Shown piece after piece: positions 48,023-54,439 of a stretch of DNA of 64,000 nucleotides. The translations under genes were made by a program, and so were the position numbers. The notes beneath the pieces were generated by a model. It worked only from the letters and a program-made list of their open reading frames with translations. It had not been told where the DNA came from and did no database searches. Positions within the stretch are counted from its first letter, which is position 1. Each line of letters opens with the position of its first letter. The stretch lies in contig NZ_CP035914.1 in NCBI RefSeq assembly GCF_004209775.1, forward strand, positions 2,480,001-2,544,000, read 5' to 3'. This DNA is from Synechococcus sp. WH 8101. GTDB lineage: Bacteria > Cyanobacteriota > Cyanobacteriia > PCC-6307 > Cyanobiaceae.

Positions 48023-49093
48023 GTGGAGTTCCTGCAGACCACCTCAGGTCTGCTCACCGGCACGGCCCTGCTCGGCGGCCTGTGGTTGATGCTGCAGCTT
48101 CTCGGACGGCATGGCCGCAACCTCGGCAACAAACTCGCCCTGACCCTGCGCCGTCCAGTGCTGATCGGCCTGGGCATCACCCTCTACGCCACCTGGCTGA
48201 CCCAGCTCATCAACCGCGAAGTCGCCTTGGTGAGTCAACAGATGCTCAACCGCTTTTCACTCACATTGCTGATCAGCACGATCAGCTGGGCGAGCCTGAA
48301 CGCGGGCCATGCCTTCATCCGCTCGGGGCAAATGCGCCGCTGGCTGCAGATGAAAGACCCCAAGGATCAGGCCATGCTGATCAACTTAATGGGGAGGCTT
48401 TACACCATTCTAGTGCTGCTGTTCACCGCAGCGGCGCTGATGGTGAACTTCGGCATCCCCTCAGCTGCGATCGCCACCATGCTTGGCGGCGCTGGCATCG
48501 GCATCACCTTTGCCACCCAGCAGGTGAGTCAGAATTTCCTGTCTGGCTTCATGCTGTTCTTCAATCGCCCCTTCAAAGAAGGCGACTGGATCTGCGCCGA
48601 TTCGTTTCAGGGAACGGTTGAGACAATCGGCTGGTATTACACCAGGGTGCAAACTTTTGACCGCAGACCTCTCTTCATCCCCAACTCGGTGTTTGCAACA
48701 ACCCCGATCGAGAATCCGGGCCAGATGTACAACCGCAGAATCCTGGCCAATATCAGCCTGCGCTACGAAGACCTCGGCCGCATCGCCGGCATCACCACCG
48801 ACGTGCGCCAGCTTCTGGAACAGCATCCCGACATCGATCAGAGGCAGACCATTCTGGTGAACTTCAACGAATGGGATGCCTCGTCGATCAACATGATGGT
48901 GTATTGCTTCACCAAAACAACGGTGTGGCGAGAATGGCTCGACATTCAACAGTCCATCTTCCTGGAGATCGCTGCCATCGTGCAACGCTCCGGCGCTGAT
49001 TTTGCCTTCAACTGCACCACGCTGTATCCAGCGCCGGAATCGGATGGAGCCACACTGGCCAACCTGATCCCTCGCCGGAATCAGGCGGCCTGA
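48023..49093 (+). CDS. MscS-family mechanosensitive channel (first)
   Basis: The 356-residue product has four or so hydrophobic segments (about 5-25, 40-62, 80-100 and 122-150) and the MscS pore helix and beta domain: GGAGIGITFATQQVSQNFLSGFML (about 154-178), NRPFKEGDWI and IPNSVF, with the R-x3 pore-exit region. It releases solutes or ions under membrane tension. It starts with GTG at 48023. It converges on valS with 18 bases between stops. A second MscS-like gene starts at 53165. Confidence 0.88.
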   Translation: MEFLQTTSGLLTGTALLGGLWLMLQLLGRHGRNLGNKLALTLRRPVLIGLGITLYATWLTQLINREVALVSQQMLNRFSLTLLISTISWASLNAGHAFIRSGQMRRWLQMKDPKDQAMLINLMGRLYTILVLLFTAAALMVNFGIPSAAIATMLGGAGIGITFATQQVSQNFLSGFMLFFNRPFKEGDWICADSFQGTVETIGWYYTRVQTFDRRPLFIPNSVFATTPIENPGQMYNRRILANISLRYEDLGRIAGITTDVRQLLEQHPDIDQRQTILVNFNEWDASSINMMVYCFTKTTVWREWLDIQQSIFLEIAAIVQRSGADFAFNCTTLYPAPESDGATLANLIPRRNQAA

Positions 49094-51932: not shown

Positions 51933-53168
51933 GTGTCCAGCTGTCGCCGCCTTGCCGCCATCACCGGATTCGCTCTGGCGTTAACGGGCTGCAGCCAGAT
52001 CAACAGCAACCTGCCGATCAACCTCTATCTGGCTATCGGCCTCGAAGACTCCTCGGTGATCAGCGAAAAAAGCCACCGCTTTTTCAGGGATCGCGTCTCA
52101 CTTGTGGTGAACGAATTCAGGAAGATCAACCCCAACATTCACGTGCAGGTGGCTCTCTATCCAGAAAGCTCGCTGCTGGACCGGATCCAAAAACGCAATC
52201 AGGCTGATCTTGGTCCAGACCTGATCCTCACCGATGCCTTCATCTCAAGGGAGCTTTTTGAGCGTCACCTGACCGTGGCGATCCCCGATGCAAAGGCGCT
52301 TCAGAAAAACATCTTCCCCAGCCTGCTGCAGCGGGTCACAACACCAAAACAAAACATTGCCGGACAACCATTTGTTGTCTACATGCAAATCGCATGCTTC
52401 AACCGCCGCAAGATTCCTCGCCCCCCTGAAACAACCCAGGAGCTTCTCGAAATCAGCGCCGCCGGCAAAAACTTCGGACTGTCTTACGACGCAGCACAAA
52501 TCTTTTGGTCGGCCGGCAGTCTCGGCGCCTTGCATTCCCTGAATCAGATCAGCAGCAAGAAGCTCATCAAGACAGACGATCGACGCGCCATCACCACTTG
52601 GCTGGCATGGCTTCAGCAAGCCGCAGCACAACAGCGCGTCGCCTTCTTCGCTCATCAAAATGAGCTCAAAACAGGTCTCTTGAAAGGAGAACTGGACTGG
52701 ATCACATGCGGCAGCTCCAATCTTGCCGAGCTACGCGCCAGCCTCGGCCAAGACCTCGGCGTGTCGTCACTGCCACGCGGCCCTCGCCATGCGGCAAGCC
52801 CATTCAACCGCTTACGAGTGATCAGCCTGGGAGAAAACTCAAGCGACCGCCAGCGAGAGGCAGCCATCAAACTCTTGAATTACATGCTTCAACCACAAAT
52901 ACAGCGCAACTTCACCCTTCAAACCCTGTCATTTCTACCCACGAACAAACACGTCAAGATACCCATCAAGAGCTCCTCAACGCTGCGAGCTATGGTGACA
53001 TCAAGGCAACAATCAGATGCCTCGTCAACCTTTCTCAACCATTTCAATCTGAACCAAAGCCTGAGGGATGGCATGACCGACATCCTGACCCCCCTGATCT
53101 TCGGCCTCAAAACGCCAGAAGAAAGCACGGATGAGCTGATTACATTTCTAAGGCAATCAAAATCATGA
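51933..53168 (+). CDS. solute-binding lipoprotein, ABC extracellular type
   Basis: The 411-residue product begins with a lipoprotein signal: basic CRR, a hydrophobic stretch, and the lipobox LTGC with the acylated C20. The mature part (NEFRKINPNIHVQVALYPESSLLDRI, DLILTDAFIS, then WLQQAAAQQRVAFFAHQNELKTGLLKGELDWI) fits the sugar-type (family 1) periplasmic-binding fold. No ABC permease or ATPase is encoded beside it. The start is GTG 51933; earlier codons overlap valS. The stop overlaps the next ATG. G+C is low here (27 of 60 bases at 52921-52980). Confidence 0.78.
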   Translation: MSSCRRLAAITGFALALTGCSQINSNLPINLYLAIGLEDSSVISEKSHRFFRDRVSLVVNEFRKINPNIHVQVALYPESSLLDRIQKRNQADLGPDLILTDAFISRELFERHLTVAIPDAKALQKNIFPSLLQRVTTPKQNIAGQPFVVYMQIACFNRRKIPRPPETTQELLEISAAGKNFGLSYDAAQIFWSAGSLGALHSLNQISSKKLIKTDDRRAITTWLAWLQQAAAQQRVAFFAHQNELKTGLLKGELDWITCGSSNLAELRASLGQDLGVSSLPRGPRHAASPFNRLRVISLGENSSDRQREAAIKLLNYMLQPQIQRNFTLQTLSFLPTNKHVKIPIKSSSTLRAMVTSRQQSDASSTFLNHFNLNQSLRDGMTDILTPLIFGLKTPEESTDELITFLRQSKS

Positions 53169-54439
53169 ATGAGCTGTTTCAGGAAGTGCTCGGCTGGCTG
53201 GGCTACCTCGAGAGACCAGAGGTCAGCGCCCAGATCATTCTGATCATCATCATCGCCATCGGCAGCCATTCTCTTCACAGACCAGCTCTGACCCGAAGGC
53301 TGCCGCGTCTACTCAGGGCCTTCATCGGACCAGCCGTCGCTGGCCTTGTGGTGCTGATTCTTCAACAACACCAGCACGCCAACGGCCTGATGTGGTTTCT
53401 CTCAGCGGCCTGGCTCGGCTGGGCACTCCTGCTCCTGCTGGAAAGAGGCCTGCTTCGGGTGCTGCCGGCCCAACGAGTGCATGAACTGCTAAGCCGTCTT
53501 TTGAGACCACTCTATTTGCTCCTCATCGTTCTGCTGTTGATCAACCGACTGGATAGTCTTCAGGATCTGGCTGTCATTGGCGTGGGCCAGTTCTTTGGCG
53601 CTGAGTTGACCCTTGGCAAACTCTTTGGCTCCTTGCTGATCAGCTATTTGCTGCTCATCGGTAGCGGCCCACCGGCAGCTGGTTTCGCCTGGGTGATGCA
53701 GAAACTGATCGGTTACAGCGACGGCAGCCGCAAGGCGCTGGAGCTGATCATTCGTTATGTCGTCGTGGGAATCGGCATTACCGCAGTTGGCATGCAAATT
53801 GGCCTCAATGCCACCGCCTTGGTGGCCATCGCCGGTGGCTTATCGGTGGGCCTGGGCTTTGGCGTCAAAGAAGTATTTTCCAACTTCATCAGCGGGATCT
53901 GGCTGTTGTTTGAAGGCTCGGTGCGACCCGGGGAAGTGTTGATGGTGGATGGGGATCCTTGTGAAGTGCGCCGACTCGGCCTGCGCGCCACCCTGCTCTG
54001 GCGCGACCGAGACAACGCCGAACTACTGATCCCCAATCAGATGTTCTTCACCGATCAGGCCACCACTTATACCGCCAGTGATCGGATGCGCCGGAGCGAA
54101 ATCCGCATTGGCGTTGCCTATCGCCATGATCCACGCACGGTGCTAGCTCTACTGGAACAGACTGCGCTCAGCGTTCCGCGCGTGCTGAATCAACCAGCAC
54201 CTCGTGCGCTTCAGGTGGCTTATGACGATTACGCCATCACCTATTCCCTGCGCTACTGGATCGCCAATCCGATGGACAACATCGGCATCATCAGCGAAGT
54301 GAATCAAGCGATCTGGATCGCCTTCAAACACGAAGGCATTGAAATCCCATTGCCACAACGCGTGAACACCATTCGTGACTGGCCCACGCTCACGCACGAG
54401 CCAGACGCTGAAGATAGCGATCTCTCGAGCCCGCATTGA
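53165..54439 (+). CDS. MscS-family mechanosensitive channel (second)
   Basis: The 424-residue product has many hydrophobic segments (about 20-40, 50-67, 75-90, 112-130 and 150-180) before the conserved MscS core: TALVAIAGGLSVGLGFGVKEVFSNFISGIWLLFE (about 218-251), RPGEVLMVDGD and LIPNQMFF. The extra membrane helices make it larger than E. coli MscS. Its ATG overlaps the lipoprotein stop (ATGA), so the two are translationally coupled. The last 50 bases overlap the oxygenase gene on the other strand. Confidence 0.9.
   Translation: MNELFQEVLGWLGYLERPEVSAQIILIIIIAIGSHSLHRPALTRRLPRLLRAFIGPAVAGLVVLILQQHQHANGLMWFLSAAWLGWALLLLLERGLLRVLPAQRVHELLSRLLRPLYLLLIVLLLINRLDSLQDLAVIGVGQFFGAELTLGKLFGSLLISYLLLIGSGPPAAGFAWVMQKLIGYSDGSRKALELIIRYVVVGIGITAVGMQIGLNATALVAIAGGLSVGLGFGVKEVFSNFISGIWLLFEGSVRPGEVLMVDGDPCEVRRLGLRATLLWRDRDNAELLIPNQMFFTDQATTYTASDRMRRSEIRIGVAYRHDPRTVLALLEQTALSVPRVLNQPAPRALQVAYDDYAITYSLRYWIANPMDNIGIISEVNQAIWIAFKHEGIEIPLPQRVNTIRDWPTLTHEPDAEDSDLSSPH

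Follow-up and report, generated by a model that had tools for sequence, protein, structure and literature searches.

The window considered here is a 64,000-nucleotide stretch of Synechococcus sp. WH 8101 (contig NZ_CP035914.1, positions 2,480,001 to 2,544,000 of the forward strand), taken from a genome of 2.63 Mb that consists of a single contig. It holds two overlapping genes, one for a solute-binding lipoprotein with the fold of MalE-type proteins and one for a channel of the MscS family (Table 1). The initial annotation placed the stop of the lipoprotein over the ATG of the channel and saw no ATP-binding cassette (ABC) permease beside the lipoprotein. Both statements agree with the reading frames: the overlap is a four-base ATGA, and no ABC permease or ATPase genes adjoin the pair in the window. 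It is preceded by valS, named by sequence recognition, and followed by a 2OG-Fe(II) oxygenase gene, both on the minus strand. The channel was also called large. Its assignment to the MscS family stands on Pfam matches, while "large" is loose wording for a protein that is mid-sized for this family.

Table 1. Positions of the lipoprotein, the channel and their parts in the window.
Feature	Position	Strand	Remarks
Solute-binding lipoprotein, MalE fold, SBP_bac_8	51933..53168	+	411 aa; GTG start at 51933, stop TGA 53166-53168; lipobox LTGC with Cys20; invariant Cys155 and Cys259
Signal peptide and lipobox, residues 1-20	51933..51992	+	From the sequence; ends LALTGC; 93 of the 97 aligned members that have a residue at this position keep Cys20
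ATGA shared by the lipoprotein stop and the channel start	53165..53168	+	4 bases; -4 spacing in 73 of 129 pairs
MscS-family channel, seven predicted membrane helices	53165..54439	+	424 aa; ATG at 53165; membrane assignment inferred from the helices of the model
Channel N-terminal domain, residues 1-128	53165..53548	+	GWLGYLxR motif helix and four helices; seen only in channels paired with the lipoprotein; candidate docking domain
MscS core of the channel	53549..54439	+	Hairpin 139-149, pore helix 216-250, beta domain, C-terminal domain; sidedness presumed from MscS topology

When 201 genomes from the family of WH 8101 were searched with the proteins, 88 had lipoprotein matches and 89 had channel matches (E 1e-20 or better). 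The channel lies directly downstream on the same strand for 115 of the 117 lipoprotein match rows, and in the two unpaired rows the contig stops 147 and 25 bases past the match. In the other direction, the lipoprotein adjoins 112 of 118 channel rows, and the remaining six comprise two short fragments (G076 C19 and G124 C16) and four distant homologues (E 6e-33 to 6e-30). These counts set the 117 lipoprotein rows against the first 118 channel rows, omitting channel rows weaker than E 5.7e-30, and rows are not equivalent to genes: several derive from a single gene that is broken (G162, G158 C17) or from fragmentary contigs (G080). The adjacency of lipoprotein and channel is far beyond chance.

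The pairing extends beyond this family. In a phylum sample of 292 genomes, the lipoprotein profile has matches in 35 genomes, 32 in the same class and three outside it. The pair is present at all 20 loci from five other cyanobacterial families (17 of 17 fetched loci, the other three by coordinates), whereas no channel match occurs at the three profile loci outside the class Cyanobacteriia (L215-L217). The 39 strongest channel rows in the 292 genomes (E 2.8e-86 or better) are all at lipoprotein loci, and the next best reaches only 2.8e-56. Eight next-tier channels, of 53 rows, were examined, not as the strict top eight since G239 and G385 were passed over, and none has a lipoprotein match within its 14-kb locus. 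Among the matches listed, the closest channels belong to Cyanobium, Synechococcus, and Vulcanococcus. The best 80 loci of a wider contig scan with the channel alignment suggest that the pair is restricted to cyanobacteria; a contig scan with the lipoprotein sequence alone gave no matches. One pair, with a channel 62% identical to the window channel, is on a contig filed under Rhodopirellula (UBA8648, L090), which is probably a misbinned cyanobacterial contig. The adjacency seen in WH 8101 is thus not unique to this genome, and represents a conserved, co-inherited two-gene module.

The surroundings of the pair were compared over 70 loci. The channel is found at position +1 in 67 of the 68 loci with a called lipoprotein open reading frame (ORF); in the other two (L078 and L096), this ORF was lost to overlap filtering. 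Among mechanically called ORFs there is no third conserved gene, and nothing else rises above 10 of the 70 loci. Frames of the valS kind occur in 23, an antisense frame overlapping them in 22, and another frame in 21, at scattered offsets. The 70 loci were picked for holding the pair or its channel and include some duplicate genomes, and therefore do not count the pairing independently.

The two genes are also closely coupled. Counting every overlap, and not the -4 spacing alone, the inferred channel start overlaps the lipoprotein gene in 84 of 129 pairs. Channel starts were inferred by the nearest start codon, and the 129 pairs exclude five lipoprotein ORFs, three in which the called channel frame probably starts too far upstream and two at contig ends. 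The upstream position and the gene overlap would also suit an assembly or targeting factor, a helper made just before its client, which places the channel, for example at a cell-envelope site, and is not a sensor. Against this, keeping a whole two-lobed binding fold for chaperoning alone would be unusual, and the six other MscS-domain loci of WH 8101 have no such partner, as only one lipoprotein match is found in the genome. Such a helper is the most improbable of the alternatives considered.

Co-inheritance was followed in 125 pairs from 99 genomes, after four more had been dropped as fragments or duplicates. Two or three pairs per genome are present in 22 genomes. Lipoprotein and channel distances correlate with r 0.88, and when partners are shuffled within genomes, which keeps the species tree, the mean is 0.72, the maximum is 0.81, and none of 500 shuffles reaches the observed value. 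In genomes with several pairs, the best lipoprotein match and the best channel match point to one operon in 773 of 780 clear-margin cases; over all 2702 cases the number is 2132, compared to 1270 expected by chance. The lipoprotein and channel genes are inherited as a unit. Two pairs occur in tandem or within about 10 kb at L070, L071, L081, L082, and L266, where the lipoprotein copies are about 30-40% identical to the window protein. It seems that both genes are duplicated together, as one unit.

Covariation between the two proteins was measured by mutual information in the 125 pairs (effective number 81, 20 shuffles). Somewhat more of the top 200 scoring position pairs lie in predicted periplasmic stretches (0.215 compared to 0.134, sd 0.027). 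Among the top 50, however, cytoplasmic positions are also high (0.60, with a background of 0.43), and the highest score of all is within the shuffle range.

The channel contains the MscS beta-domain (PF00924, 1.1e-8, 35.5 bits with a cut-off of 20.2) and the MscS C-terminal domain (PF21082, 1.4e-12, 48.3 bits with a cut-off of 21), both of which place it in the MscS superfamily. A third match, PF21088, is just below its cut-off (22.6 against 23.1). The closest solved relatives by sequence are MscK (4.7e-31) and MscM, and two MscK structures rank first and second by fold. The protein does not belong to MscK itself: the NCBIfam equivalog PRK11281 gives 145.1 bits against a cut-off of 991, and only profile positions 870-1083 are matched. 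The channel model has a mean pLDDT of 89.0, and in addition to the pore helix its long helices comprise residues 18-36, 48-68, 74-99, 102-129, 150-182 (with one break), and 186-212. If the channel is oriented as MscS, which we presume, the N-terminus (1-17) and segments 68-74 and 130-149 face the periplasm.

Residues 1-128, which comprise the GWLGYLxR motif and four long helices, cannot be assigned convincingly to a Pfam family, as only one of 37 members shows a weak match at 0.0086. A profile of this domain, searched in 386 genomes, matches 54 places in 46 genomes, and all 54 are channels of the pair. Two of these genomes were new to the analysis, and their fetched loci are paired; in G162, the lipoprotein beside the matched channel is broken. 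Of 80 MscS loci found via the channel, 37 have both the N-terminal domain and the lipoprotein, and 43 have neither. The domain is absent from the six other MscS-domain loci of the WH 8101 genome and from the eight fetched next-tier cyanobacterial channels. The presence of the domain therefore predicts the lipoprotein in the loci examined, as would be expected of a docking surface. Residues 1-128 are a candidate private docking domain for a periplasmic sensor subunit.

The lipoprotein matches SBP_bac_8 of Pfam (2.3e-19, 70.7 bits with a cut-off of 27), as do 74 of the 106 members of its family at E 0.001. An AlphaFold2 model from the alignment of 106 sequences has a mean pLDDT of 94.3 and is closest by fold to MalE-type proteins, with GacH at Z 35.9 (rmsd 3.1, 357 residues aligned, 14% identity). 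The window protein is thus a MalE-like solute-binding protein by Pfam cut-off and by its two-lobed fold. Its LALTGC sequence marks it as a bacterial lipoprotein, and 102 of 129 lipoproteins pass the strict lipobox rule. The scan scored 18 members as having none, although a lipobox can be recognised by eye in most of these, and four are fragments. Another nine were set aside as having a hydrophobic segment without a lipobox, and one of them has a lipobox by eye. In the eight others, all paired, a plain N-terminal hydrophobic helix replaces the lipobox, so that they do not score as lipoproteins. This suggests that tethering at the cytoplasmic membrane is what matters. Such a helix would keep the protein at the membrane in which the channel sits, which would favour action beside the channel.

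The sugar-binding fold proposed in the initial annotation is confirmed as a fold, but not as to the sugar. In a profile alignment with Escherichia coli MalE (as present in a fusion chain, with Trp340 outside the alignment), the positions of Trp62 and Trp230, which we take to be sugar-stacking positions, are occupied by small polar residues in the lipoprotein, and MalE function is therefore not indicated. A sugar ligand is unproven since these tryptophans are not kept. Five positions, P146, C155, W192, C259, and P281, are invariant across the 106 members, and C155 and C259 could form a disulfide.

These features leave room for a structural or force-coupling subunit, in which the lipoprotein would no longer bind a ligand and would form a fixed periplasmic cap or tether that sets tension sensitivity, like a built-in periplasmic domain. 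The five invariant positions resemble fold residues and not ligand contacts, the MalE stacking positions are not kept, and MscK, the closest solved channel, has a large periplasmic region of its own. In contrast, the two-lobed fold is predicted intact at high confidence, and a pure spacer would need neither hinge nor cleft. The lipoprotein also diverges fast between close relatives (66% identity to the relative at L069, compared to 81% for the channel and 96% for valS), but this is ambiguous, as it could be ligand diversification or just relaxed constraint. A structural subunit is the main alternative and is considered unlikely.

MalE-type solute-binding proteins are subunits of ABC importers. 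In the window, no cognate permease or ATPase accompanies the lipoprotein, and at the 70 loci the channel is its only widely kept neighbour. The initial annotation allowed for an orphan permease elsewhere in the genome that uses the lipoprotein. Orphan permeases do exist in WH 8101. A UgpA/MalF-like permease gene (L230:1330-2415) stands alone between purK-like and aroB-like genes, the latter two named by sequence recognition, and a UgpE/MalG-like gene (L229:1408-2244) lies far apart from it. No binding protein is encoded beside the UgpA-like gene in its 3.5-kb locus. The lipoprotein could thus serve a UgpA/UgpE-like permease, with the channel merely co-expressed and balancing uptake and release. 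The separate location of the two permease genes would fit this, as would at least one GgtC match (E 1e-5) in all 46 pair-bearing genomes searched, none of which lacks a GgtC-type permease match; 35 of the matches are close (E 1e-102 or better) and 11 are only distant.

The distribution of the UgpA-like permease points elsewhere. WH 8101 has a second orphan MalE-type binding protein directly behind mreB, mreC, and mreD (L222:6666-7973, equal to G000:C1:140665-141972; names by sequence recognition). The UgpA-like permease is present in six of 20 chosen genomes without the pair, and the mreBCD-side protein is found in exactly those six, as well as in all 10 pair-bearing genomes tried. The 20 genomes were taken non-randomly from the shown part of the no-match lists, and neither the permease nor the mreBCD-side protein is present in the 14 others, which are mostly small genomes. 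The UgpA-like permease does not need the window lipoprotein, because in pair-less genomes it tracks the mreBCD-side protein, which is the better candidate partner. The pair-bearing genome G150 moreover has a close GgtC match alone and no UgpA-like one. The shared occurrence in the six pair-less genomes suggests that the mreBCD-side protein and the lone UgpA-like permease are a split ABC sugar importer. The lone UgpA-like and UgpE-like permeases are candidate partners of the mreBCD-side protein, and of these two it was the UgpA-like one that was traced in other genomes. The permease data lower the likelihood of an ABC-subunit role for the window lipoprotein, which would also leave its strict pairing with one channel type and the private channel domain unexplained. 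Such a role is very unlikely.

Genes for osmolyte handling are also present in WH 8101. At L223:4783-10261, a ggpS-like gene is followed directly by ggtB-, ggtC-, ggtD-, and ggtA-like genes (by sequence recognition), which place glucosylglycerol synthesis and uptake in one apparent operon. In the available portions of PMC9948718, Synechocystis is described as releasing glucosylglycerol upon hypo-osmotic shock. The lipoprotein might therefore recapture solute, catching an osmolyte that leaves through the channel in a downshock and either retaining it or delivering it to an uptake system, while gating would be unaffected. The glucosylglycerol cluster and the Synechocystis release agree with this idea. 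On the other hand, capture by a lipoprotein would be negligible compared to the efflux in a downshock, and GgtB, the binding protein of the glucosylglycerol importer, already serves the ggt transporter. GgtB belongs to the same broad class of binding proteins as the window lipoprotein, but is encoded with its own GgtC, GgtD, and GgtA, and at E 0.01 its ggpS-ggtBCDA-like locus gives no match to the profile built from the channel-paired family. The 11 of 46 pair-bearing genomes with only distant GgtC matches, and the pairing-specific channel domain that recapture leaves unexplained, also count against it. Solute recapture is considered improbable.

The G+C content of the lipoprotein gene is 0.539 and that of the channel gene is 0.573, compared to 0.641 for the window, so both genes are low. 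The initial annotation took the lower value of the lipoprotein gene as a hint of transfer. Of the 34 pairs that remain in loci of 9 kb or more once duplicates are removed, 28 have a lipoprotein gene with less G+C than its flanks, and the same holds for the channel gene in 28. The order valS, pair, oxygenase is also found in L069 and L074, and in L070, where two pairs lie between the flanking genes. Recent horizontal transfer, as read from the low G+C, is an unnecessary explanation, as low G+C is common to most pairs and the flanking order is shared by relatives, and the suggestion was not upheld. On the other side of valS, the window contains a second MscS gene (48023-49093), whose homologue is directly behind a lipoprotein-channel pair in the relatives L071 and L082. 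Several mechanosensitive channel genes gather at the valS site.

The initial annotation also supposed that the lipoprotein feeds or gates the channel. Feeding is unlikely, since a passive channel could not use a high-affinity binding protein to concentrate solute. Gating is the reading favoured here, and it is built on what was computed directly, namely the conserved pairing, the overlapping genes, the co-inheritance, the binding-protein fold, and the N-terminal domain restricted to paired channels. The two genes would form one channel system. In this system, the lipoprotein would serve as a periplasmic subunit dedicated to the channel. It would be anchored at the cytoplasmic membrane and would dock on the N-terminal membrane domain that is private to its MscS-family partner. 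Its two lobes, by opening or closing on a solute, would shift the tension at which the channel opens or closes. The system would then act as a mechanosensitive valve whose tuning depends on an extracellular or periplasmic solute, which may be an osmolyte released by the valve itself. As a whole, the lipoprotein as a docked, ligand-responsive subunit of the channel is given about an even chance. Physical docking is probable, ligand-dependent tuning of gating falls slightly short of an even chance, and an osmolyte as the ligand is doubtful.

Several observations weigh against this interpretation. Binding of the lipoprotein to the channel is deduced, and the mechanosensitivity of the channel is assumed from its family. 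The ligand need not be a sugar, and to judge from the residues at the stacking positions, the pocket may hold something else or nothing and may be degenerate. No in-frame fusion of lipoprotein and channel was seen, although no systematic search was made; the long open frames at some channel matches (e.g., 781 aa in G030, where the frames differ by coordinates) are not joined to a binding protein. In G162 and G158 C17, the frame of the lipoprotein next to the channel is interrupted. Paralogous pairs within single genomes show no significant correlation of their distances (rho 0.27, p 0.15, 30 comparisons), and the covariation between the two proteins is dominated by clade signal. At the corresponding loci of the two broken cases (L304 and L305), the lipoprotein gene is in several open pieces, which may reflect decay while the channel frame stays open, or assembly errors.

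The system is similar to several known channels and binding proteins, but differs from each of them. MscS-family channels have mostly been studied as responders to membrane tension. Like MscK and MscM of E. coli, its closest solved relatives, the window channel has extra membrane helices before the MscS core. It is far below the MscK cut-off, lacks a built-in large periplasmic domain, and has a separate binding lipoprotein. The bCNG channels comprise an MscS-type core fused to a cytoplasmic cyclic-nucleotide-binding domain, and are similar in joining an MscS-type pore to a ligand-binding module. In contrast to that fused cytoplasmic domain, the module here is a separate periplasmic protein. 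Importer proteins of the MalE, GacH, and UgpB type share the two-lobed fold and SBP_bac_8, whereas in the present case no permease or ATPase is found at the locus, a channel follows, the sugar-stacking tryptophans of MalE are not kept, and two cysteines are invariant.

GluR0 of Synechocystis is a glutamate-receptor-type K+ channel that, according to the available text of PMC13099474, senses the extracellular environment by a binding-protein-type domain and is linked to cell volume control. Both systems combine a cyanobacterial channel with a binding-protein-type module. However, GluR0 is one polypeptide with a K+ pore, while the WH 8101 system has a separate MalE-type lipoprotein and an MscS-type pore with putative ligand gating. 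With separate genes and an MscS pore, it does not belong to the ionotropic glutamate receptor or GluR0 type. The available portions of PMC9948718 and PMC9361551 tie mechanosensitive channels to salinity tolerance in this cyanobacterial group. The content of such channels differs among marine, brackish, and freshwater strains of the Synechococcus/Cyanobium group, with variation among 24 MscS channels, as far as the accessible part of PMC9361551 reports. A binding protein paired with MscS is not mentioned in the accessible parts of PMC9948718, PMC7771541, PMC9361551, PMC13099474, PMC8670252, PMC12903740, and PMC3170327, and a search of the open-access literature, in which some terms were very narrow, returned no title on such a pair.

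The pairing of a solute-binding lipoprotein with an MscS-family channel is real, and is broader and stronger than first seen; the sensor function is putative. The module is present in many Synechococcus, Cyanobium, and relatives. The private N-terminal domain offers a direct handle, as its presence predicts the partner in the loci examined. As a tentative proposal, held at somewhat less than even confidence, the two genes may encode a ligand-tuned mechanosensitive channel in which the chemistry of the surroundings sets the pressure threshold of a cyanobacterial release valve via a so far unnamed four-helix docking domain. If this is true, a conserved, co-inherited binding partner would give an MscS-family channel a chemical input from outside and a testable accessory subunit, and cyanobacteria would have a second route, beside GluR0, from binding proteins to channel sensors.

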